Of a stretch of DNA of 27,360 nt, positions 6,883 to 27,360 are shown piece after piece (position 1 is the stretch's first letter; every line of letters begins with the position of its first letter). The notes under the pieces were generated by a model. The model worked only from the letters and a program-made list of their open reading frames with translations, ran no database searches and was not told the DNA's origin. The stretch spans positions 1 to 27,360 of the IMG/VR virus record IMGVR_UViG_3300032240_001228; one strand, given 5' to 3'. The translations under genes were made by a program, and so were the position numbers. Source of the DNA: a virus.

Positions 6883-7719
6883 TTAACCTTGAGAAGAAGA
6901 TCCACTAAATAGGCCACCAACACCAGGTAAACTACTTAATAAATTTAATATAGAACCAGACGTATCACTACTACCAAATACTTGATTTAATAAATTGGCG
7001 CCAGTGCTTGGTAAACCTGCCAAAACAGATACAGCCTGTAGTGGAGATTGCTGGTTTTGTTGGGTTACTGTACCGGGCACAGTTAAAGCGTTAACTAAAT
7101 TAGCGTAATTGCCAAGTGATTGATACGGGGCGTTTTGTTGTGCTTGACCTGTTGTCAATGCACCAGCTAAGTTTTGAGTACCAACGTTAGCAAGATTGGC
7201 GGCCGCTGCAGATCCAATCTGTTGATTTTGTAATGCTGCTTCCATTTGTTGAGCTTGCAAAGTAGCTAACGCATTTGCTTTGGCAGTATCAACAGCGGTT
7301 TGACCACGTAAACTACCAAATTGGCCAGTACCAATACCAGCTGCTTGTTGCGGAGCTGTTACTGTTGGCAATAGTTGGTTTAATTGATTTTGCTGAGCTG
7401 AGAACAAACCACCCATAGCAGTCTGGGTGTTAGGTGTTACGTTACCAGAAGCGTCTGTAATCCAAGGATTAGCAGCACCGCTAGAAATTTGTCCTAAAGT
7501 TGAACTAGCTTGAGCAAACGGATTGTTTGGGTTTTGCATCAAGTTAACTGCTTGTTGACCCACAGTATTTTGAAACTGTGGTGTAGCACCCATTGCCGTA
7601 CCAGCTTGATTAATAATATTTTGTTGAGCGGCGTCATACCACGCTGGCATTGTGGTTTGTACTTGATTAGAACTTTCAAGTAGGTTGTTTAAACCTGTTG
7701 ATCCTGTTGTACCTGGCAT
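6883..7719 (-). CDS. Ala/Gln/Asn-rich probable virion protein
   Basis: The 278-residue product is dominated by Ala, Gln, Asn, Gly, Ser and Thr, with very few charged residues. There is a recognisable segment GIGTGQFGSLRGQTAVDTAK near the middle and long predicted helices (LQAQQMEAALQNQQIG). The C-terminus ends in a hydrophobic, Gly/Ser-rich stretch (SLPGVGGLFSGSSSQG). Such composition is common in phage internal virion or tail-tube-associated proteins, but no function can be assigned. Its ATG overlaps the TAA of the upstream gene by one base (TAATG), implying coupled translation. Confidence 0.75.
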   Translation of the reverse strand: MPGTTGSTGLNNLLESSNQVQTTMPAWYDAAQQNIINQAGTAMGATPQFQNTVGQQAVNLMQNPNNPFAQASSTLGQISSGAANPWITDASGNVTPNTQTAMGGLFSAQQNQLNQLLPTVTAPQQAAGIGTGQFGSLRGQTAVDTAKANALATLQAQQMEAALQNQQIGSAAAANLANVGTQNLAGALTTGQAQQNAPYQSLGNYANLVNALTVPGTVTQQNQQSPLQAVSVLAGLPSTGANLLNQVFGSSDTSGSILNLLSSLPGVGGLFSGSSSQG

Positions 7720-8549
7720 TATGATTTCACCTTATTTTTCGCTTCTTCCAAATATGCCAATGGGCCTTTGCTTTCCGGTGGCAACTCACTTGGGTCGTTA
7801 CTGCTTTTATCTTCTCTTACCGCTTCTAAAAATTTATCCAAAATAGCGGCGCCAGCACTATTACTTCCGTTTCCAAGATCTGCAACAACATCCGCGGGAA
7901 TAACAAACTCACCGTTTGCTAACATCGCTGGAACGCTATCGCTTGTGCCGTCGCCGTCACCCTCGACATAAGTATTGCTTGCATTTTGGCCACCCTCACT
8001 AAAGAATTGTGGATTAAAACCTTCCACATCACCGCCTTCAGCTTTTTTAGTTAAGGGCATTGGTGAGCGAGAAAAGGAACTTAAACCAGTGAACGGCGTT
8101 TGAAACGCAAATTGTTTACCGTGCGAACGAGTTTCAGTCATTGGTAAATTACCGCCAGCTGCAAGCCCAATTAAACCACCAGTAGCAGCCTGTTGAATTT
8201 GTTGCAAAGACATAGGGCTTAAAGACGATTGCGCTACAGGCATAGTGCTTAATGCAGGAGCAATAGACGGAATATTTACTTGACTGCCATGAACTGTCAA
8301 TGGTTGAAGCGCCGGAGGGTTTTGAACTTGAGCAGGATTAATAGTGGATACATTAACATTAGTTTTTCCACCACCGCCTTTTGGGCCACCACCGCCGCCA
8401 CCAGTACCGCAGCAGCATCCGAACCAGCAATTGCAACAGCACCAGCAGTAGTTATTACCGCCGCCACCGCCACCACCGCCACCACCGCCCCCACCGCCAC
8501 TGGGCCCGCAGCAAAATATGCAAATAATACAACCGACAGTACCGCCCAT
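7719..8549 (-). CDS. Cys/Gly-rich N-terminus protein with phage GGLIGL and VPAMLxxGEFVI motifs
   Basis: Unknown function, 276 residues. The N-terminus is striking: 12 cysteines within the first 47 residues (7, 10, 13, 14, 35, 37-39, 41, 45-47), a run of 14 glycines at 18-31 and further Gly runs to about 61. Then come a Pro/Gln/Ser linker, GGLIGLAAGG (124-133), and a C-terminal domain with DSVPAMLANGEFVIPADVV (204-222), a motif I associate with phage tail tape-measure or internal virion proteins. The ATG has GGAG seven bases upstream, overlapping the previous stop region. The N-terminal frame is continuous with the recognisable C-terminus, so the Cys/Gly composition is not a frame artefact unless there is a sequencing error in the repeat. 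Confidence 0.75.
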   Translation of the reverse strand: MGGTVGCIICIFCCGPSGGGGGGGGGGGGGGNNYCWCCCNCWFGCCCGTGGGGGGPKGGGGKTNVNVSTINPAQVQNPPALQPLTVHGSQVNIPSIAPALSTMPVAQSSLSPMSLQQIQQAATGGLIGLAAGGNLPMTETRSHGKQFAFQTPFTGLSSFSRSPMPLTKKAEGGDVEGFNPQFFSEGGQNASNTYVEGDGDGTSDSVPAMLANGEFVIPADVVADLGNGSNSAGAAILDKFLEAVREDKSSNDPSELPPESKGPLAYLEEAKNKVKS

Positions 8550-8552
8550 AAT

Positions 8553-9005
8553 TTACTCCGTAACTATTGAATAGGTTTTTTCAAAATAACCAGCGCCAAG
8601 TCGTTCTAAAATAGGGCTGTAATCTAAAAAAGGTTTAACATGAAACATAATTCTTTGTGGATTTCTTTTCTTTATTTCTACAGTTGTCCACTTAATAAAT
8701 TTAATGCCCAGCATACCTTTTCGGTATTCTGGACTTATATACAAAACGTCTGAACTGGCAGTTAAACTATTTTTGTAATGGATATGTTTTGTAAGAAACC
8801 ATAAACTATATCCAATTAATACACCATCATTTCTAATGGTGTGTATTTCCAATATGTTTTTATTGTAATAATCATTGTATCGCCGAAGATCCGGATCTAA
8901 AACAATCACATCAGTTCTTTCGGCAATCTCTTCATAATGCTTTTGAAACAACGCCATAGCTTCTTGCGTAAATGGCTCGGGTGCTTCTTTTTGGAAGGTA
9001 ATCAT
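8553..9005 (-). CDS. GNAT-family N-acetyltransferase-like protein
   Basis: Would transfer an acyl group from acyl-CoA to an amine. The 150 residues contain the GNAT core: a strand ending GVLIGYSLWFLT (61-72), a second, DVLYISPEYRKGMLG (86-100), whose RKGxxG turn is the expected CoA-pyrophosphate loop, and a following helix IKFIKWTTVEIKKRN. The C-terminal FHVKPFLDYSPILERLGA matches the usual final region. Phage-encoded GNAT proteins of this size are common near structural genes; the substrate is unknown. It follows the cupin pair with one base between stop and start and is the last gene of the accessory cassette. Confidence 0.75.
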   Translation of the reverse strand: MITFQKEAPEPFTQEAMALFQKHYEEIAERTDVIVLDPDLRRYNDYYNKNILEIHTIRNDGVLIGYSLWFLTKHIHYKNSLTASSDVLYISPEYRKGMLGIKFIKWTTVEIKKRNPQRIMFHVKPFLDYSPILERLGAGYFEKTYSIVTE

Positions 9006-9006
9006 A

Positions 9007-9501
9007 TTACCATCCTAACACTTTAGCATGCTCTTCACCAACGGCATCACCTTCCCAGTTGGTTGTTACAGATACCGGTTCTTTATCTTTCCAGTATTCA
9101 AAACTTAAAAATGCACCACCTTCAGGTCCAATTGAAAGCCAATGCGGTATCCCATCTGGTGAGCTTACTGTTTTACCGAGTAGAGCATGCGTTCCGTTTT
9201 CTTTGGCGTATTGCCATTGAGATACATCTGGATTATCTCTACCTTCTAAATTAAATTGAATATTGCCTGTTAAATAAACAAAAGCAGATTCAACACCTGG
9301 GTGCGTATGTTTTGGAGAAGTACTATGTGGCTGTGTAACATACAACTCTACTTGGAACGGGCCTTCTCTAAACAAACACAAGGACATTGCATTATCTGTG
9401 TAAAAAACCGGATTCTTAAAAGGAGGCCTTAATGGAAATCCTTTTTGACAATACCAATCTCTAAATTCTTCAACTGTTTGCCACTTCAATGGTTCTTGCA
9501 T
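9007..9501 (-). CDS. Cupin-fold protein, copy 1
   Basis: A single-domain cupin of 164 residues. H65-T-H67-P-G-V-E71 is cupin motif 1, and SPDGIPH with H120 is motif 2, so a 3-His/1-Glu metal site is complete. It is a clear paralogue of the gene immediately upstream: both share PPFKN, (L/Y)CL(F/Y)R(E/D)GPFQ(V/I)ELY, ENGTH, LLGK, IGPEGGAFL and a C-terminal NWEG...VGEEHA. The start is ATG 9501, with GGAG six bases upstream; a TTG at 9513 lacks such a site. The gene overlaps its upstream copy by 32 bases in another frame. Reaction unknown; cupins include dioxygenases, isomerases and small-molecule binders. Confidence 0.8.
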   Translation of the reverse strand: MQEPLKWQTVEEFRDWYCQKGFPLRPPFKNPVFYTDNAMSLCLFREGPFQVELYVTQPHSTSPKHTHPGVESAFVYLTGNIQFNLEGRDNPDVSQWQYAKENGTHALLGKTVSSPDGIPHWLSIGPEGGAFLSFEYWKDKEPVSVTTNWEGDAVGEEHAKVLGW

Positions 9502-9979
9502 GTTCTTCTCCAACTAGGTTACCTTCCCAGTTAATTGTAACAGATGTTGGAGCTTTTGTGTGCCATTTCTCAAAAATTAAAAAGGCGCCACCTTCGGGGC
9601 CAATTTTTACCGCGTGTTCTGCAGCAAAACCAGATTCAACTGATTTGCCCAATAACATATGAGTGCCGTTTTCTTTAGGCTTTTGGTATTGAGATAGATC
9701 TACAAATCCAATATCTTTACGACCAAAATTTAAATTGCCCGTTAAATACAAAGAAACAGATTCAATTCCCGGATGAGAATGAAACGGCGTTTCAGTGTTA
9801 GGTTTACAAATATATAACTCTATTTGAAACGGGCCATCCCTATACAGGCACAAAGCATAAGCAATATCTGTAGTATGTATTGCGTTTTTAAATGGTGGTT
9901 TTACAGGTTTACCAGCTTTTAACCAAGCATTTTTAAAATCTTCTGCACTAGCAGAAAGGTTTAAATTGAGGCTACCCAT
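9470..9979 (-). CDS. Cupin-fold protein, copy 2
   Basis: Paralogue of the downstream gene, 169 residues. Motif 1 is H67-S-H69-P-G-I-E73; motif 2 keeps H122 in GFAAEH but has lost the canonical PxG, so the metal site is probably intact with a changed loop. That difference between copies may mean different substrates. It overlaps the 120-residue gene upstream by 19 bases and the second cupin downstream by 32 bases. A tandem duplication followed by divergence is the simplest reading. Cytoplasmic, no signal peptide. Function unknown. Confidence 0.8.
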   Translation of the reverse strand: MGSLNLNLSASAEDFKNAWLKAGKPVKPPFKNAIHTTDIAYALCLYRDGPFQIELYICKPNTETPFHSHPGIESVSLYLTGNLNFGRKDIGFVDLSQYQKPKENGTHMLLGKSVESGFAAEHAVKIGPEGGAFLIFEKWHTKAPTSVTINWEGNLVGEEHARTIEVANS

Positions 9980-10323
9980 TTAAAATTAAGATGATTAGTT
10001 GGTGCAATATGAACGCCAGTGTCTTTTAATGCTTGAACAATTGATTTGTTTTCTGTGCTCATATAGATAACTTTAACTCCTTTATTGCGCAAAATATCTA
10101 ATAGTGCAGACAAAGAAGCCATCATAGCCAAACGCGGATCGTGCGAAATAAAGTGAACCTGTGCTTCATGCTCTCCAAGTTTTTTGGAAAACATCAAAGT
10201 ATCATCGTGTTGGTGTGAAGTCATACCAGCGTTTTTAAGATGATGCGCAGCTAATTTTAAATGCTTATCTGGGTTGTGCCCTACATCTATAGCATGTTTG
10301 TGAATAATCTCAGATGGTGTCAT
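9961..10323 (-). CDS. Small His-rich protein of unknown function
   Basis: A 120-residue protein without a family I can name. Histidines are abundant in the first half (HKHAIDVGHNPDKH, AAHHLKN, SHQHDD). The second half, LSALLDILRNKGVKVIYMST followed by a helix and GVHI, looks like an alpha/beta unit. It could be a degenerate acyltransferase-like or metal-binding protein, but neither is established. Its ATG overlaps the upstream TGA by four bases (ATGA), and its end overlaps the cupin copy 2 start. Confidence 0.7.
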   Translation of the reverse strand: MTPSEIIHKHAIDVGHNPDKHLKLAAHHLKNAGMTSHQHDDTLMFSKKLGEHEAQVHFISHDPRLAMMASLSALLDILRNKGVKVIYMSTENKSIVQALKDTGVHIAPTNHLNFKWVASI

Positions 10324-10589
10324 AATGGTTTACAGATTTGTGTCTCATCATAAGTTGTTAATTGTTCTGAATTGATGATTGCTGTAGATGTTTCTCTATC
10401 AATTTCCATCACACCAAAACAACAAATATTCCAATCTACATTATCGGTTACATCGAATGTTGGAACATTAATTTTAAAATGCTTAAACAGGTATTCTTGA
10501 TCATTTTCAAATACACGCCAAACATGCTCTTTTGTTCCGCGACCTTCTTGGCCGCGTGTTTTATTAAATCTAATTAAGTATCTATTCAT
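10320..10589 (-). CDS. Small conserved phage protein of unknown function
   Basis: The 89 residues are not recognisable as an enzyme. MNRYLIRFNKTRGQEGRGTKEHVWRV and YLFKHFKINVP are the most distinctive parts, and I associate this type with aquatic phages without knowing a function. It lies between the 2OG oxygenase and the His-rich protein with four-base ATGA overlaps on both sides, which ties it tightly to the cassette. Confidence 0.75.
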   Translation of the reverse strand: MNRYLIRFNKTRGQEGRGTKEHVWRVFENDQEYLFKHFKINVPTFDVTDNVDWNICCFGVMEIDRETSTAIINSEQLTTYDETQICKPL

Positions 10590-11212
10590 ATTACAATCGC
10601 CTGTTTCTTTTCTTCTTTAGGTTTTGGCTCTACCGAAACGTTAAAGTGAATAAACTTAAAAGGCTCTTCTGACGAGTTCTTAGTAAACGCATGCGCCAAC
10701 CAAGCATTTGTAATATACAAAACACCAGGTTGTGGATCAAAGACAACTCTTTGACTTGCTTCTGTTAACTTAGATCTGTCAGCTTCTGCAATACTTAATT
10801 GGACTTTCCCAATCCGTGGGTCAAACACTACAACTTTAGGGCAATCTTTTGGACACTCCAAAAAGTAAAACCCTACAAGTTGCACACCATCATTGTGGAC
10901 ATGTTCATCCATACCACCCATTTTACCATACTCTTGACCCCAAAGCGAATGAAAGTACGTAAGCTTATCATTCATTCTGTATCCCTGAGAAGCTAGGATG
11001 TTCCAAGATGACTCAATAACATATGTGGCAAATGGTAGGATCCTCTCGTCACCAGCCATATTAGCCGTCATTTTGGCTAAATGCTTGTCGTTGCACTGAT
11101 GGGATTTTGATACGTATTCATCAAAAACCGGTAGAATTTCTTCTATAAATCCAGGTACTTCAATACGATAAATGGGCGTACTAAAATAGTGCCCAACTTC
11201 TAAATTTCCCAT
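10586..11212 (-). CDS. 2-oxoglutarate/Fe(II)-dependent oxygenase (double-stranded beta-helix)
   Basis: Likely hydroxylates a protein, nucleotide or small molecule using Fe(II), O2 and 2-oxoglutarate. Evidence: FHSLWGQEYGKMGGMDEHVH followed by NDG (ending at 109) supplies the first iron ligands (H104 or H106 with D108), VGFYFLECP is the next strand, VVVFDPR (127-133) resembles the family's FxDPR strand, and VLYITNAWLAHAF gives the distal His174; K186 in PFKFIHFNVS may replace the 2OG-anchoring Arg. This arrangement suits the phage-abundant 2OG-FeII oxygenase family with an HxH...yYL...P signature. The start has AGGTG five bases upstream. It is the first gene after a 58-base gap bearing a promoter-like element, so it probably heads a transcript. 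Target unknown. Confidence 0.8.
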   Translation of the reverse strand: MGNLEVGHYFSTPIYRIEVPGFIEEILPVFDEYVSKSHQCNDKHLAKMTANMAGDERILPFATYVIESSWNILASQGYRMNDKLTYFHSLWGQEYGKMGGMDEHVHNDGVQLVGFYFLECPKDCPKVVVFDPRIGKVQLSIAEADRSKLTEASQRVVFDPQPGVLYITNAWLAHAFTKNSSEEPFKFIHFNVSVEPKPKEEKKQAIVI

Positions 11213-11220
11213 TTTTCACC

Positions 11221-11256
11221 TGTGTTATTCATATATACTAATGCAAGAATAACACA
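11221..11256 (-). repeat. Perfect 10-bp inverted repeat around promoter-like element
   Basis: TGTGTTATTC (11221-11230) and GAATAACACA (11247-11256) are exact inverse copies with a 16-base loop. The loop and one arm contain the 18-base element described at 11229-11246. It lies in the gap between the 83-residue gene and the oxygenase gene, within 9 bases of the latter's ATG. It could be an operator, a transcript hairpin controlling translation, or a weak terminator; there is no U-run. Confidence 0.7.
11229..11246 (-). promoter_or_regulatory. Promoter-like element, copy 1 (TTGCATTAGTATATATGA)
   Basis: Read leftward, TTGCATTAGTATATATGA starts about 35 bases before the oxygenase ATG. The same 18 bases recur with one mismatch at 17492-17509, also ahead of a gene that follows a gap. 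No separate -35/-10 pair at sigma70 spacing is evident, so a phage-specific or single-block promoter is possible. Confidence 0.55.
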
Positions 11257-11270
11257 GTTTTCGCCCTAAA

Positions 11271-11522
11271 TCAACGACTTGGACCGTTAATTATTTCAGT
11301 AAATTCTCTGGCCCAATCTTGCCAAGTCTCGTATGTACTAGGGTCTGGAATGGGATAAACAGCAAATGCCTCAGAATTAAGCAGGTTAAAGGCTCCCTCT
11401 TGCCAATTTTCCTCGGAGGCAAACTCAATGTTCTTTTGACCGTAATAAATAGCCAAATTGCCGTTCCAATCGTCCCAGGTCATATAGTCTGGAAGGCAAG
11501 GAAAAAACTGCTGGAAACTCAT
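11271..11522 (-). CDS. Small phage structural-region protein, unknown function
   Basis: An 83-residue acidic, Trp/Tyr-rich protein: PDYMTWDDWNGNLAIYYG, ASEENWQEGAFNLL and YETWQDWAREFTEIING. The compact W-D-W/W-Q-D-W pattern is one I have seen in small proteins of aquatic phage neck or tail regions, but without a proven role. Its ATG directly follows the TAA of the large tail protein upstream with no spacer. It is the last gene before a 58-base gap. Confidence 0.75.
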   Translation of the reverse strand: MSFQQFFPCLPDYMTWDDWNGNLAIYYGQKNIEFASEENWQEGAFNLLNSEAFAVYPIPDPSTYETWQDWAREFTEIINGPSR

Positions 11523-13670
11523 TTAAGGTCTTTCGTCTCCGAACTCAGCCGTAATCATATTTCGGCCCATTTCAAAATTGCCGTCAATCTCATTAGATTC
11601 AAACTTTAATCGAATTAGGCGATGCTCAACACGAAGGTCTATTTTACCAGTTTCTTGGGTAAAGTAATAAGGTCCGGAGTTTTCTTCATTCTGACCGCCA
11701 GCAAACTTACGACCCAAAATGGTCAACGCCATAGTACCAGACTGTAAAAAGTTTGGCTCAATACGGCGCAGGTGCATACGGCGGTTTACACCCACTGGAT
11801 TATCACCGGAAGGACTACCCGTTAACCAGCTAATATCGCTGGTTGTAATGCTAGAATACACAGCTTCTTCAGTGCCTAGTGTGGACATATTAAGACCAAA
11901 CTCATGTTGCCAAATTGAATAGCCACCAGTCACGCTATATACTGTGGAACCAACAACAGCCCCTGGAGAAATTACTTTGTCAACCGTTACTATAGTAACA
12001 CCAGGTGTACCAATGGTCGTGTTAAAAATGTTTTGGCTGGCAGTAATTCTATAAACTGTATCTTGTGGGACAGTTGAAAATGCTACGTAGTCACCGGGAC
12101 TAAACAGTGGTGTTAAGTCGCCAGCAACATAGAACTGTTTTGATGTGGGCGCTGGCAAACTAGCAGGATGGGCGATAACATAATTAGGTTGATTATACGC
12201 CGGATTATATTCCCAACCAGCCCAAATAGGCGTTGGAAACAGCTCGGTAGTATAACCACAAGAACGACGAGCGCCCATTGCAGAGCCAGCATCATACCAA
12301 AGATTATCTTTGACATTATAGATAATAGCATCAGTGCATTCTGTTGCTGTACCACGGGGGTAAAAAAACCAAATCTCATTGTATCTTGGAATCTTAGTGG
12401 CCCAAACTTTTTGTCGTTGTTCGTAATTGATATTATTAAACAACCAGTTTATGTTTTTATCGTTTGGCAATACTTTGACGTTACCGTTGTATAAATAGAA
12501 ACGGTCAACGCCCATCCAGAAAAATATACCATCCATCTCCACAACTGCGTTGGAAGACATGATGGAGATTTGGCTTGAAACAATGTCGTAGTTCCAATAA
12601 AACTGAGTTGCTTGGGAATTAAAAGAAACACGAATAAGGGAATCAGTTGCCCAAAACAATCCAGAGGGGGAAGCCGTGCCTCCACGCATTGGCATACCCT
12701 TAACAATCTTAGAGCTTGCCACGTTAACTTGGTTTGCTAATGGACCATTCCAATCATAAAAGTTTTGATTTGTATATGTGGCATCTACGTTGTTATTGGC
12801 AATAAAACCATGTGAGCCATATACAAAAATAAATGGATACAATACACATACACCACCATCAACACTAATTGATTTATAGGTAGGGTTTTGCCCTTGACTG
12901 TCAGAAAGACCAGTAAAGTAATATGTGTTATTTGCATCTGGCGTAATATTACCCACCAACACTTGAGTTGCTACACCGTTGTCAATATTAGCTAAGTTTA
13001 AACCGGGGTGTGCAAAGCATGATAGTGCACCACCTTGTGGACTAAACTGTGCGTCAAACTGCCAGTCGTTACGATATGGGCCATTTACTGGATCAGGCGT
13101 AAAGATTGTATCATTTGTCCAAATCTTGCTAATAGTTCCAACTGGCGCTGCAGGGGTGAACGTAATAGTAGTTTGGTTTGGACTAGTAGTATGAACCGAC
13201 GTGCTAATAGTATAAACTGTTGGTGTACCAGTTTGACTAATAATAAAAGTCTTAGTTGGTGCAAAGGTAGTAGTAGCGTTCCCTGGCACAATGACCTGGG
13301 TTGTGGTATTTGATGTTACATTAGCAAATACAGAACCACGTAAAAAATTAACAGTAAATGGACCACTACCAGCGCTAAAAGACGTACCGGTTGTAAAAAT
13401 ATCTAAAGTCTCTGCATTACCAGCAAAAATATAGTTAACGCCGTTGTATGGAATGGCAATCATGCCACGGTAAATACCGTTGAACGCTGTAAAAATAGTT
13501 TTATAGCCACCCATTTTTTTAGGGTCGCCACGTTGAAAACGGCACCACACACCATCAGTGTATTGGTCGTTTTGAAATACTGTACCGTCGCGTTTTATCC
13601 CAGCCGGAATTGCTAGGCTGTAGATTGAAGTGTATTGCGAGGTGTCTTGTTGCTGGTTATCAGCCGGCAT
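11523..13670 (-). CDS. Large tail hub / stabilisation-type structural protein
   Basis: A 715-residue protein with many short beta-strands and aromatic turns. The N-terminal part has GVWCRFQRGDPKKMGGYKTI followed by YRGMIAIPYNGVNYIFAGNA, a pattern seen in phage proteins that contact the portal or stabilise packaged DNA, like P22 gp10 in layout though not closely similar in sequence. EIWFFYPRG, NLWYDAG and SIWQHEFG later in the chain look like repeated propeller blades. The C-terminus (LRRIEPNFLQSGTMALTILG to the end) resembles a beta-sandwich. A stop-to-start junction without spacer joins it to both neighbours. Assigned as tail hub-like on context and strand pattern. Confidence 0.7.
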   Translation of the reverse strand: MPADNQQQDTSQYTSIYSLAIPAGIKRDGTVFQNDQYTDGVWCRFQRGDPKKMGGYKTIFTAFNGIYRGMIAIPYNGVNYIFAGNAETLDIFTTGTSFSAGSGPFTVNFLRGSVFANVTSNTTTQVIVPGNATTTFAPTKTFIISQTGTPTVYTISTSVHTTSPNQTTITFTPAAPVGTISKIWTNDTIFTPDPVNGPYRNDWQFDAQFSPQGGALSCFAHPGLNLANIDNGVATQVLVGNITPDANNTYYFTGLSDSQGQNPTYKSISVDGGVCVLYPFIFVYGSHGFIANNNVDATYTNQNFYDWNGPLANQVNVASSKIVKGMPMRGGTASPSGLFWATDSLIRVSFNSQATQFYWNYDIVSSQISIMSSNAVVEMDGIFFWMGVDRFYLYNGNVKVLPNDKNINWLFNNINYEQRQKVWATKIPRYNEIWFFYPRGTATECTDAIIYNVKDNLWYDAGSAMGARRSCGYTTELFPTPIWAGWEYNPAYNQPNYVIAHPASLPAPTSKQFYVAGDLTPLFSPGDYVAFSTVPQDTVYRITASQNIFNTTIGTPGVTIVTVDKVISPGAVVGSTVYSVTGGYSIWQHEFGLNMSTLGTEEAVYSSITTSDISWLTGSPSGDNPVGVNRRMHLRRIEPNFLQSGTMALTILGRKFAGGQNEENSGPYYFTQETGKIDLRVEHRLIRLKFESNEIDGNFEMGRNMITAEFGDERP

Positions 13671-22107: not shown

Positions 22108-24768
22108 TTAAGGGTGGGTTGCTTTATAAGCGTCAAATTCGGCTTTGAGTTCTTGGATTGCTTTTGTAAGAACTGCTGTAAATTTAGAATAATCTACCGC
22201 TTGATGATTTTCTGAACCATCTTCATTAATTGCATCTTTTTCGCCAATTACAATTTCAGGAATGTATTGTTGAATTTCATGTGCAATAAAACCAATTTCG
22301 GTTTTATTAATTTGCGGCTGTTTTCCTTTTTCTGTTTTTGGCGAAATAATATTGTATGTAACTGGTCGCAAAGCCAATATTTTTTCTAAAGCACCGTCAT
22401 CATAATTTTTTACATTTTCTTTGATTCGGTAGTCGGAAGCGTTAGTATATGCACCAGCATACACATTACAATAAGTTCCATTCCAAGCCCAAGCTCCTGA
22501 AGTAGTAACAGTTTGACCAATTCTTACAATATTGTCATTACCACCACTATGAGGGCCAATGCCTGCCGCAGCATTAGATGACCAATTTGCAATAAAAACA
22601 GGTAAACCAGCAGTAGTGCTGTAATTAACGCTATAAAAAACACTTTGAGTGCTTGTTGCACCAGTTCCTGAAGCACCTTGAATCCTAATTCCTCTTGATT
22701 CACTAGCGGCATATCCTACACCACCAAAAGCACCACCTGATTGAGCAATCCAAAACCCATTGTTATCAAAATAACCTCTAGGATTACCATCACCATCAGA
22801 TAACACAATGTAGTTACTTGATGTACGGATATCTAGACCGCCTTGATTGCCATTGTAGCCACCGAGAATGGTGTTTTTTGCGCCTGTGCTAATTGCACCA
22901 CCGCAAGGACCAGCACTACCATAAGTTCCAACAAAAGTGTTGCCTGAACCAGTTGCATTTAATCCAGCTTGATAACCTACATAGACATTTTGTGTGCCAG
23001 TTTGATTTGCATAACCAGCCTGATAACCTACTGCTGTGTTATTAGAAGCTGTGGTGTTTCCAAATAATGCGTAATGTCCTAATGCTGTATTGTAAGAACC
23101 TGTTGTATTTCTACCTAATGCACCAGTATCTACTTGATATAAACCACCACCAATAGCAGTGTTCATTGTTCCTGAAGTATTGTTATATAAAGAATAATAC
23201 CCAACAGCAGTATTATTTGAAGCGGTAGAATTAAAACCAGCGGCAGTACCAATAAAACATAAACCGCCACCAGTTGTATTTTGATAACCGCATCCTTGAC
23301 CAATAAATGTACTTTGTTGACCAGTAGTTGTGCTATACCCAGCTTGATAACCTACTGCGGTGTTATTAGATGCGGTGGTGTTTTGTGTAAGGGCTTGGTA
23401 ACCTAATGCTACATTGTTTGAACCAGTAGATGCACTACCATTTGGCCCAGCGTTATTACCTACATAAGTATTGTAGTTACCGCTTGTAACTTGAAAACCT
23501 GAATAATAACCAAAGAAACAATTATCACTTCCTGTATTAAGATATCCAGCACGAAAACCTACAGCATTACATTGGTTTGATGCAGTAGCATTTGCTAAAG
23601 CGGCATTACCTACAGCAATATTGTAATTACCAGTTCCACTATTTGCTAATGGCCCGTAACCATTTACATCTCTACCACCAATAGCAGTATTGTAAGCACC
23701 CGTAGTATTTACTTGAAGTGCAATATACCCTAAAGCTGTGTTGCCATTTCCAGTAGTATTTAATTGTAAAGATGAGTTTCCAACGGCTGTATTCCAAGTA
23801 CCAGTAGTATTTCCTTTTCCTGCAATATAACCAACAGCAGTTATATCGCCAGTAGTATTACTATACCCAGCTTGATAACCTACTGCTGTGTTGTTAGATG
23901 CGGTGGTGTTGGCATTTAATGCGCCATCACCAAAAGCGCTATTATTATTACCAGTAGAGTTGTTAAATAAAGTTGTATTACCGAAAGCTGAATTTCCATT
24001 TCCTGTAGTATTTGTGTATAAAGCATATCTACCAAATCCATGAACTTCACCAGTAGTATTACTTCTTCCAGCACCAATACCAAACGCTTGCATTAAACCA
24101 GTAGTATTACTATACCCAGCTTGATAGCCTACTGCGGTGTTATTAGATGCGGTGGTGTTTGCTTGGAGTGCGCCTGAACCTATTGCTGTATTTGATGCGC
24201 CAGTTGTGTTTGTATATAAAGCAATATATCCAACGCCAGTATTATCGTTAGAAGTTGTAGTATTTCTAACTGAATTAGAACCAAAAGCGGTATTGTTGTT
24301 TCCTGTGGTGTTTGCAAACAAAGACTGATTACCAGATGCCGTATTTGCTGAACCAGTTGTGTTTACAGGTAAAGAACTTAAACCAAGTGCTGTATTTCCT
24401 GAAACACTACCACCACCCTTACCAACAGTAAGACCTGATATAGAAGCATCATTAGCTGTAGTAAATGTAGTGCCGTTAAAGGTCATGTTGGCAGAGTCTG
24501 TTAACAGACCGCCAGTGGTTGCATAGGTTACACGACCGCTTGTTAAACCAGAGTCAATAATAGACGTTGCAGTCAGCGCTCCAAAGGAGCCAGATGATGC
24601 GGCCTTAGTGGCCAGAACCTGCACTACGCCAGAGGAGTCCTTGTAGTAGAGCTTGCCGTCGTTTGTGTTGAGCGCCAACTCACCAGCGACCAAGTTGGCC
24701 GCTAATGGTGCAGTCGAGGCGGTAGCGCTGTAGTACAGCGATAGAGGAGTGTATCCTGATTGTGCCAT
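22108..24768 (-). CDS. Tail fibre with NTxxGxNTAxGxxAL repeats and C-terminal S74 chaperone domain
   Basis: An 886-residue host-recognition fibre. The N-terminus (SLYYSATASTAPLAANLVAG; ELALNTNDGKLYYKD) is the usual phage fibre attachment module. Residues about 115-640 are built of short units of the type NTTGxxNTAxGxxAL, including four almost identical NTTASNNTAVGYQAGY copies, resembling Hep/Hag-type trimeric adhesin coils. After a beta-rich region comes the intramolecular chaperone (peptidase S74): S778-D-Y-R-I-K-E-N starts it and a helix KFTAVLTKAIQELKAEF ends it. By family knowledge this domain trimerises the fibre and cuts itself off at the Ser. The repeat and C-terminal part is visibly more AT-rich than the first 95 codons. 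AGGAA lies upstream of the ATG. Confidence 0.93.
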   Translation of the reverse strand: MAQSGYTPLSLYYSATASTAPLAANLVAGELALNTNDGKLYYKDSSGVVQVLATKAASSGSFGALTATSIIDSGLTSGRVTYATTGGLLTDSANMTFNGTTFTTANDASISGLTVGKGGGSVSGNTALGLSSLPVNTTGSANTASGNQSLFANTTGNNNTAFGSNSVRNTTTSNDNTGVGYIALYTNTTGASNTAIGSGALQANTTASNNTAVGYQAGYSNTTGLMQAFGIGAGRSNTTGEVHGFGRYALYTNTTGNGNSAFGNTTLFNNSTGNNNSAFGDGALNANTTASNNTAVGYQAGYSNTTGDITAVGYIAGKGNTTGTWNTAVGNSSLQLNTTGNGNTALGYIALQVNTTGAYNTAIGGRDVNGYGPLANSGTGNYNIAVGNAALANATASNQCNAVGFRAGYLNTGSDNCFFGYYSGFQVTSGNYNTYVGNNAGPNGSASTGSNNVALGYQALTQNTTASNNTAVGYQAGYSTTTGQQSTFIGQGCGYQNTTGGGLCFIGTAAGFNSTASNNTAVGYYSLYNNTSGTMNTAIGGGLYQVDTGALGRNTTGSYNTALGHYALFGNTTASNNTAVGYQAGYANQTGTQNVYVGYQAGLNATGSGNTFVGTYGSAGPCGGAISTGAKNTILGGYNGNQGGLDIRTSSNYIVLSDGDGNPRGYFDNNGFWIAQSGGAFGGVGYAASESRGIRIQGASGTGATSTQSVFYSVNYSTTAGLPVFIANWSSNAAAGIGPHSGGNDNIVRIGQTVTTSGAWAWNGTYCNVYAGAYTNASDYRIKENVKNYDDGALEKILALRPVTYNIISPKTEKGKQPQINKTEIGFIAHEIQQYIPEIVIGEKDAINEDGSENHQAVDYSKFTAVLTKAIQELKAEFDAYKATHP
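23015..24160 (-). repeat. Four near-identical ~45-bp DNA repeats inside the S74 fibre gene
   Basis: The stretch encoding NTTASNNTAVGYQAGY occurs at about 23015-23058, 23338-23382, 23867-23910 and 24116-24160, differing by only a few bases (for example CAGCTTGATAACCTACTGC). Spacings of about 250 to 530 bases are compatible with recombination that removes or adds whole adhesin units in frame. Confidence 0.85.

Positions 24769-24786: not shown

Positions 24787-27360
<2,574 letters not shown>

Follow-up and report, generated by a model that had tools for sequence, protein, structure and literature searches.

What does a run of six small, tightly packed genes do inside the structural operon of a phage? 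The question arises at positions 8553-11212 of a 27.4-kb IMG/VR virus record (27,360 nt; 'the window' hereafter means this whole stretch), where an oxygenase (OXY), two small proteins (u89 and u120), two cupins (cupA and cupB) and a GNAT-like acetyltransferase are encoded in succession. An earlier, sequence-only reading had proposed that all six act in one joint pathway. Our comparisons do not support a joint pathway: the block is an accessory slot into which genes are swapped, an assembly and not a unit. We suggest, with a probability of about 45%, that the functional core of this slot is an OXY-u89 module that modifies cysteines (Cys) of the phage's own virion proteins.

The window comes from a freshwater podovirus, with ribonucleotide reductase and DNA polymerase genes on the plus strand and a long structural block on the minus strand. 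Its phage stabilisation-type protein (STAB, 11523-13670) and gene content put it close to the Caulobacter phages RW/GB2A, to Pelagibacter phage HTVC023P and to the Manatee Spring record MW202545. Eighty relatives were fetched with STAB as the anchor, and their genes were called by a simple open reading frame (ORF) tiler; many of these records are fragmentary, and some of the tallies below count related contigs more than once. The features on which the argument turns are as follows.

OXY, 10586-11212, minus strand: PF13759-type non-heme iron oxygenase of 208 aa with a putative HxH...H site at H104, H106 and H174 (Pfam E=9e-9; 135 relatives)
u89, 10320-10589, minus strand: all-beta protein of 89 aa, the constant partner of OXY (adjacency counts; AlphaFold2 (AF2) pLDDT 90)
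u120, 9961-10323, minus strand: member of a diverse family whose genes also take this position in many OXY-lacking relatives; not confined to the cassette
cupA, 9470-9979, minus strand: metal-type cupin with a weak PCO/ADO profile match and metal motifs kept
cupB, 9007-9501, minus strand: paralogue of cupA, with an ATG start at 9501 (listed TTG start at 9513) and motifs kept in alignment with cupA
GNAT, 8553-9005, minus strand: GNAT-like acetyltransferase, by its PHROG 1249 match
g276, 7719-8549, minus strand: virion-associated protein of 276 aa with 12 Cys at its N-terminus and a tape-measure-type C-terminal motif; candidate substrate
Cys-rich segment of g276, 8409-8549, minus strand: residues 1-47, holding all 12 Cys (from the translation)
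u83, 11271-11522, minus strand: conserved gene at the upstream border of the variable slot, beside the anchor in nearly all relatives

OXY and u89 are a portable pair that stays together across hundreds of phages in IMG/VR. Profile searches of viral contigs gave at least 600 candidates for each, and neighbourhoods were read from the best 80 of each: 66 of the 80 u89 genes have OXY as their immediate upstream neighbour, 73 of the 77 OXY genes with room for it are followed at once by u89, and, of the 13 u89 loci with no OXY next to them, eight come from records that carry OXY at another place. Within the phage collection u89 occurs in MW202545 only, and it is also present on two contigs binned as bacterial metagenome-assembled genomes (MAGs). 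Two MAG contigs with OXY and u89, L249 and L250 (Bacteroidetes and Balneolaceae), are probably phage. The pair tolerates interruption, as an insertion of ~600-800 bases separates its members in L114, L257 and L276. In L221, L241 and similar loci the pair is preceded by a fibre gene and then a 160-170-aa YIQIENGQP-type gene, a possible fibre chaperone.

The association of OXY-u89 with Cys-rich virion proteins is well supported. In relatives of the window, the homologues of g276, 276-1630 aa long, contain 0-1 Cys when the contig lacks OXY and usually 8-44 when it carries OXY. Counting g276 or g278, eight OXY-bearing relatives are Cys-rich and one is Cys-poor, against none and 32 among those lacking OXY (Fisher p=9e-8, kinship ignored); the full records of the OXY-lacking relatives tested contain no OXY. 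On the anchor tree the OXY label changes seven times, and the window is nested among OXY-lacking phages whose STAB is 96% identical. Structural-like proteins in long stretches of seven OXY-lacking records contain 0.05-0.25% Cys, compared with 0.64-2.39% in most OXY-bearing records. Aside from these counts, the g276 homologues share a conserved C-terminal GEFVIPADVV motif and have variable N-terminal regions; g276 is a hypervariable virion gene.

An independent test used a Cys-free query drawn from a Gly-rich fibre domain, which fetches loci regardless of the presence of OXY-u89. At these loci, fibres encoded alongside the pair (pair+) have a median of 2.40% Cys and those without it (pair-) 0.52% (p=9e-8), while the non-fibre proteins are alike (0.64 vs 0.75%). 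Across loci of at least 8 kb with structural-like ORFs, a Cys-rich structural ORF is present in 95 of 132 pair+ loci and in 5 of 74 pair- loci. The comparison material consists of environmental contigs, since the isolate phage collection gave no control for Cys-rich fibres; a Cys-rich fibre query had no matches there. For OXY and u89, these associations lend support to the virion modification that the sequence-only reading had favoured, and that support does not extend to a six-gene pathway.

In pair+ virion proteins Cys is exchanged for acidic residues. Relative to pair- fibres, pair+ fibres have 4.4 times the Cys, 0.27 times the aspartate (Asp) and 0.21 times the glutamate (Glu), with most other residues at 0.65-1.2; Asp and Glu together lose 2.2 percentage points where Cys gains 1.8. 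In a set of 53 fibres the formal net charge follows 1.005 x Cys% - 0.06 (rho 0.88; 0.80 within the pair+ fibres), and counting each Cys as -1 brings pair+ fibres from +2.37 to +0.10, neutral like pair- fibres. The slope of charge on Cys is 0.73 in the g278-like family (r 0.88) and 0.81 in a further repeat family (r 0.79). Even within one locus, Cys-rich structural proteins contain 0.67% Asp plus Glu and Cys-poor ones 4.54% (68 of 73 loci). In alignments Cys falls most often on Asp, at 5.1%, and on Asn, at 4.3%, the average being 2.1%, and the segment of g276 before PGGW is Asp-rich in relatives without OXY, with on average 5.1 acids and 0.3 Cys, as opposed to a Cys-rich, Asp-poor form of one or two acids and up to 10 Cys in those with it. 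Recoding of the Cys codon was also considered and rejected by reasoning, Cys being normal in other proteins of the same loci.

Could OXY be the agent of such an exchange? It scores 36.1 bits against the Pfam family PF13759 (2OG-FeII_Oxy_5; curated cut-off 27), all 43 of a set of diverse OXY relatives match this family at E<=0.01, and 7 of the 43 also touch Cupin_2; none of the 43 matches PCO_ADO, so no sequence relationship to CDO, ADO or PCO was found. In an alignment of 135 OXY sequences H104, H106, H174 and H189 are 100% invariant, and position 108, where classical Fe(II)/2-oxoglutarate (2OG) oxygenases would have the acid of their HxD/E...H iron triad, is variable (F/Y/D/N/G/H), so that no conserved acid stands there. 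Two members of PF13759 have solved structures, 3bvc and 2rg4, and both show the HxH and a later His in alignment with OXY; the corresponding phage family is phrog_81. The solved members are uncharacterised and, unlike them, OXY is paired with u89 and Cys-rich virion proteins. The invariant HxH...H set recalls the three-His thiol dioxygenases (CDO, MDO, ADO and plant cysteine oxidases), which turn thiols into sulfinates and of which ADO acts on the N-terminal Cys of proteins (PMC8503633, PMC11406360). The reaction proposed for OXY would be the same one, an Fe- and O2-dependent conversion of the Cys thiol into a sulfinate, but its proposed targets are internal Cys of virion proteins, the weak PCO/ADO similarity in the window belongs to the cupins, and its partner u89 resembles nothing known. 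With the classical protein hydroxylases (prolyl, asparaginyl, aspartyl) OXY shares a fold class by family name, but their HxD/E...H is not conserved in it, and the residue enriched alongside the pair is Cys.

The partner is predicted with confidence as a seven-stranded all-beta domain (AF2 model from 90 sequences, pLDDT 90.2), where an earlier model from 9 sequences had reached pLDDT 76 and matched no fold. The newer model has no match in the PDB at E<0.001 (best Z 2.6) and mainly finds unnamed phage proteins in a viral structure library. One match in BFVD is B2ZYE1 of Ralstonia phage phiRSL1 (E=1.3e-4), which bears the name adenosine 5'-phosphosulfate kinase. The marine pelagiphage HTVC023P (L360) has three 2OG-Fe oxygenase-like genes near its tail genes; u89 was not matched in that record, and the stretch read contains four fibres with 6-8 Cys each and normal acids.

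From these patterns we infer that the cysteines are modified, that the product has a charge of -1, that OXY is the agent and that u89 assists it. OXY, with its putative three-His iron site, would use O2 to oxidize Cys in exposed Gly/Ser/Thr/Ala-rich virion proteins, candidate substrates being g276 in the window and g278 or tail fibres elsewhere. The product would be anionic and resemble Asp, with cysteine sulfinate or sulfonate the likeliest candidates, and u89 may bind OXY, the substrate or both and so confer specificity. Cysteine sulfinate resembles aspartate, and because OXY has the HxH...H set and thiol dioxygenases make sulfinates, S-oxygenation appears the simplest chemistry to match the Asp-like behaviour of Cys, other anionic products being possible. 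It is plausible that virion proteins shed acids yet stay near neutral because oxidized Cys assumes the role of Asp and Glu; the two cupins of the window may act as a further, optional pair of oxygenases on the same or another target. A bolder version, in which many freshwater phages add to Asp and Glu a third acidic residue, an enzymatically made cysteine sulfinate or sulfonate, in their tail fibres and other virion proteins by way of a portable module of a three-His oxygenase and a specificity subunit, seems to us doubtful, if well worth entertaining.

Searches of open-licence papers turned up no case of an oxygenase modifying virion Cys in a phage. If OXY-u89 does modify virion cysteines, phages would chemically rewrite their receptor-binding proteins after translation, oxidized cysteine standing in for aspartate, in what would amount to a widespread post-translational code among uncultured freshwater viruses that bears on the contact of virions with hosts and environment. 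Such a role would change how a very common 'auxiliary' oxygenase is annotated and give phage PF13759 oxygenases a testable function, and the two genes would serve as a tool with which sulfinated or sulfonated proteins could be made.

Several observations weigh against modification of virion cysteines by OXY-u89. Glu positions are hardly taken by Cys (0.65%), the g276 of the window is not charge-balanced (14 Lys plus Arg, 21 Asp plus Glu, 12 Cys), its g278 has no Cys, and a positive slope of charge on Cys also appears over all structural ORFs of pair- loci, some of them from truncated records. Exceptions occur in both directions, with 37 of the 132 pair+ loci lacking a Cys-rich structural ORF and 5 of the 74 pair- loci having one. 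Among the relatives of the window, L077 has an OXY (cut by the contig end) without Cys-rich virion proteins, and L037 has OXY, an incomplete g276 and no Cys-rich structural ORF on a 37-kb contig. Phylogenetic sign tests are without power here, as independent pairs agree in 4 of 4 cases (p=0.125). PF13759 is filed as 2OG-dependent, the three-His set is read from sequence, and the support as a whole is computational.

Other explanations meet the same evidence less comfortably. It is unlikely that the virion cysteines remain thiols, engaged in disulfides or metal binding, with OXY-u89 linked to them for another reason or modifying neighbouring residues: CC and CxC are indeed enriched (19 and 16 observed, about 8 expected for each) and the N-termini of g276 are dense in Cys, but the Cys count is odd in 25 of the 41 Cys-rich fibres, CxxC is not enriched, and neither disulfides nor metal sites explain a loss of Asp and Glu with a slope of about 1. 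That OXY is instead a Pro, Lys or Asn hydroxylase, acting for example on the collagen-like fibre at 24787-27222, would suit both the 2OG annotation of PF13759 and the two long GXY runs of that fibre, and yet we think it improbable, given that Cys is the sole residue clearly enriched in pair+ fibres, that Pro, Lys and Asn are nearly unchanged there, that HxD...H is not conserved in OXY and that the collagen-like fibre has no Cys. Much the same low standing goes to shared ecology, in which phages of certain freshwater hosts would carry both OXY-u89 and Cys-rich, acid-poor adhesins with no functional link. In its favour, almost all matches are environmental contigs, with one u89-bearing record in the phage collection, and strict phylogenetic tests are underpowered. 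Against it, the contrast holds inside single families and between close relatives (the window and phages with a 96% identical anchor), it recurs across several protein families and gene orders that are unrelated to one another, and the remaining proteins at these loci have ordinary Cys contents, the Cys-poor structural ones keeping their acids.

There remains the single pathway, in which oxygenase, cupins and acetyltransferase would successively modify a virion protein, a nucleotide or a sugar, and which we consider very unlikely. In its favour, the six-gene order recurs in relatives: it is complete in L002/3/4 and L005, with identities of 39-84%, and L006 shows it until the contig ends within GNAT. 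This recurrence marks the packing as more than chance. The co-occurrence check nevertheless found the genes scattered. Between u83 and g276 or g278, the slot in STAB relatives contains a u120-like gene alone, GNAT alone, OXY and u89, OXY, u89 and u120, or nothing; OXY and u89 occur without cupins and GNAT in L037, L045 and L073, GNAT is the sole slot gene in L021 and L079, u120-like proteins occupy the slot in many relatives without OXY, and the cupA-cupB pair turns up among the early genes of an unrelated phage (L007-L010), a cytosine-C5 methyltransferase-like gene lying a few genes further downstream. Identity between the window and L002 is also uneven, as separate histories predict: 84% for cupB, 82% for GNAT, 66% for cupA, 65% for u89, 51% for OXY and 40% for u120. 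Because the parts occur apart and their identities differ in this way, we regard the block as an assembly, with GNAT and u120 best explained as ordinary occupants of the slot. It resembles the morons of phage structural operons in that conserved genes, here u83 and g276/g278, enclose variable ones, and differs from them in that one occupant pair, OXY-u89, tracks the amino-acid make-up of the virion proteins. Searches with u120 against viral contigs and the phage collection, and with cupA against the phage collection, had no matches.

As to the make-up of the block, all six ORFs were found on the minus strand, co-directional and joined as originally described, with overlaps of 4, 4, 19 and 32 bases from OXY to cupB, a 1-base gap before GNAT and a 3-base gap from GNAT to g276. 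The promoter-like element said to head it was not recovered: a scan of 7600-11700 placed none in the 58-base gap upstream of OXY (11213-11270), and over that region as a whole there are 8 such sites, below the 11.9 of shuffled sequences. The protein types proposed hold by profile for the oxygenase and for GNAT, the latter through PHROG 1249 (E=2.9e-6) with no match in Pfam. The cupins match only weakly, under the Pfam cut-offs (Cupin_2 E=0.025; PCO_ADO E=0.0017, cupA), but motif 1, HxH...(D/E)...G with D or E at the acid position, and the His of motif 2 are kept in all aligned cupA and cupB members; u89 and u120 matched no named family.

The window also encodes two fibres. The collagen-like tail fibre at 24787-27222 has two GXY runs of ~200 residues each and no Cys, and the other, an 886-aa protein at 22108-24768, has YadA-like repeats (NTTASNNTAVGYQAGY). 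In the pair+ phages L145, L149 and L155, YadA-like repeats carry Cys at variable positions (e.g. GACCQ, GNCCQ).

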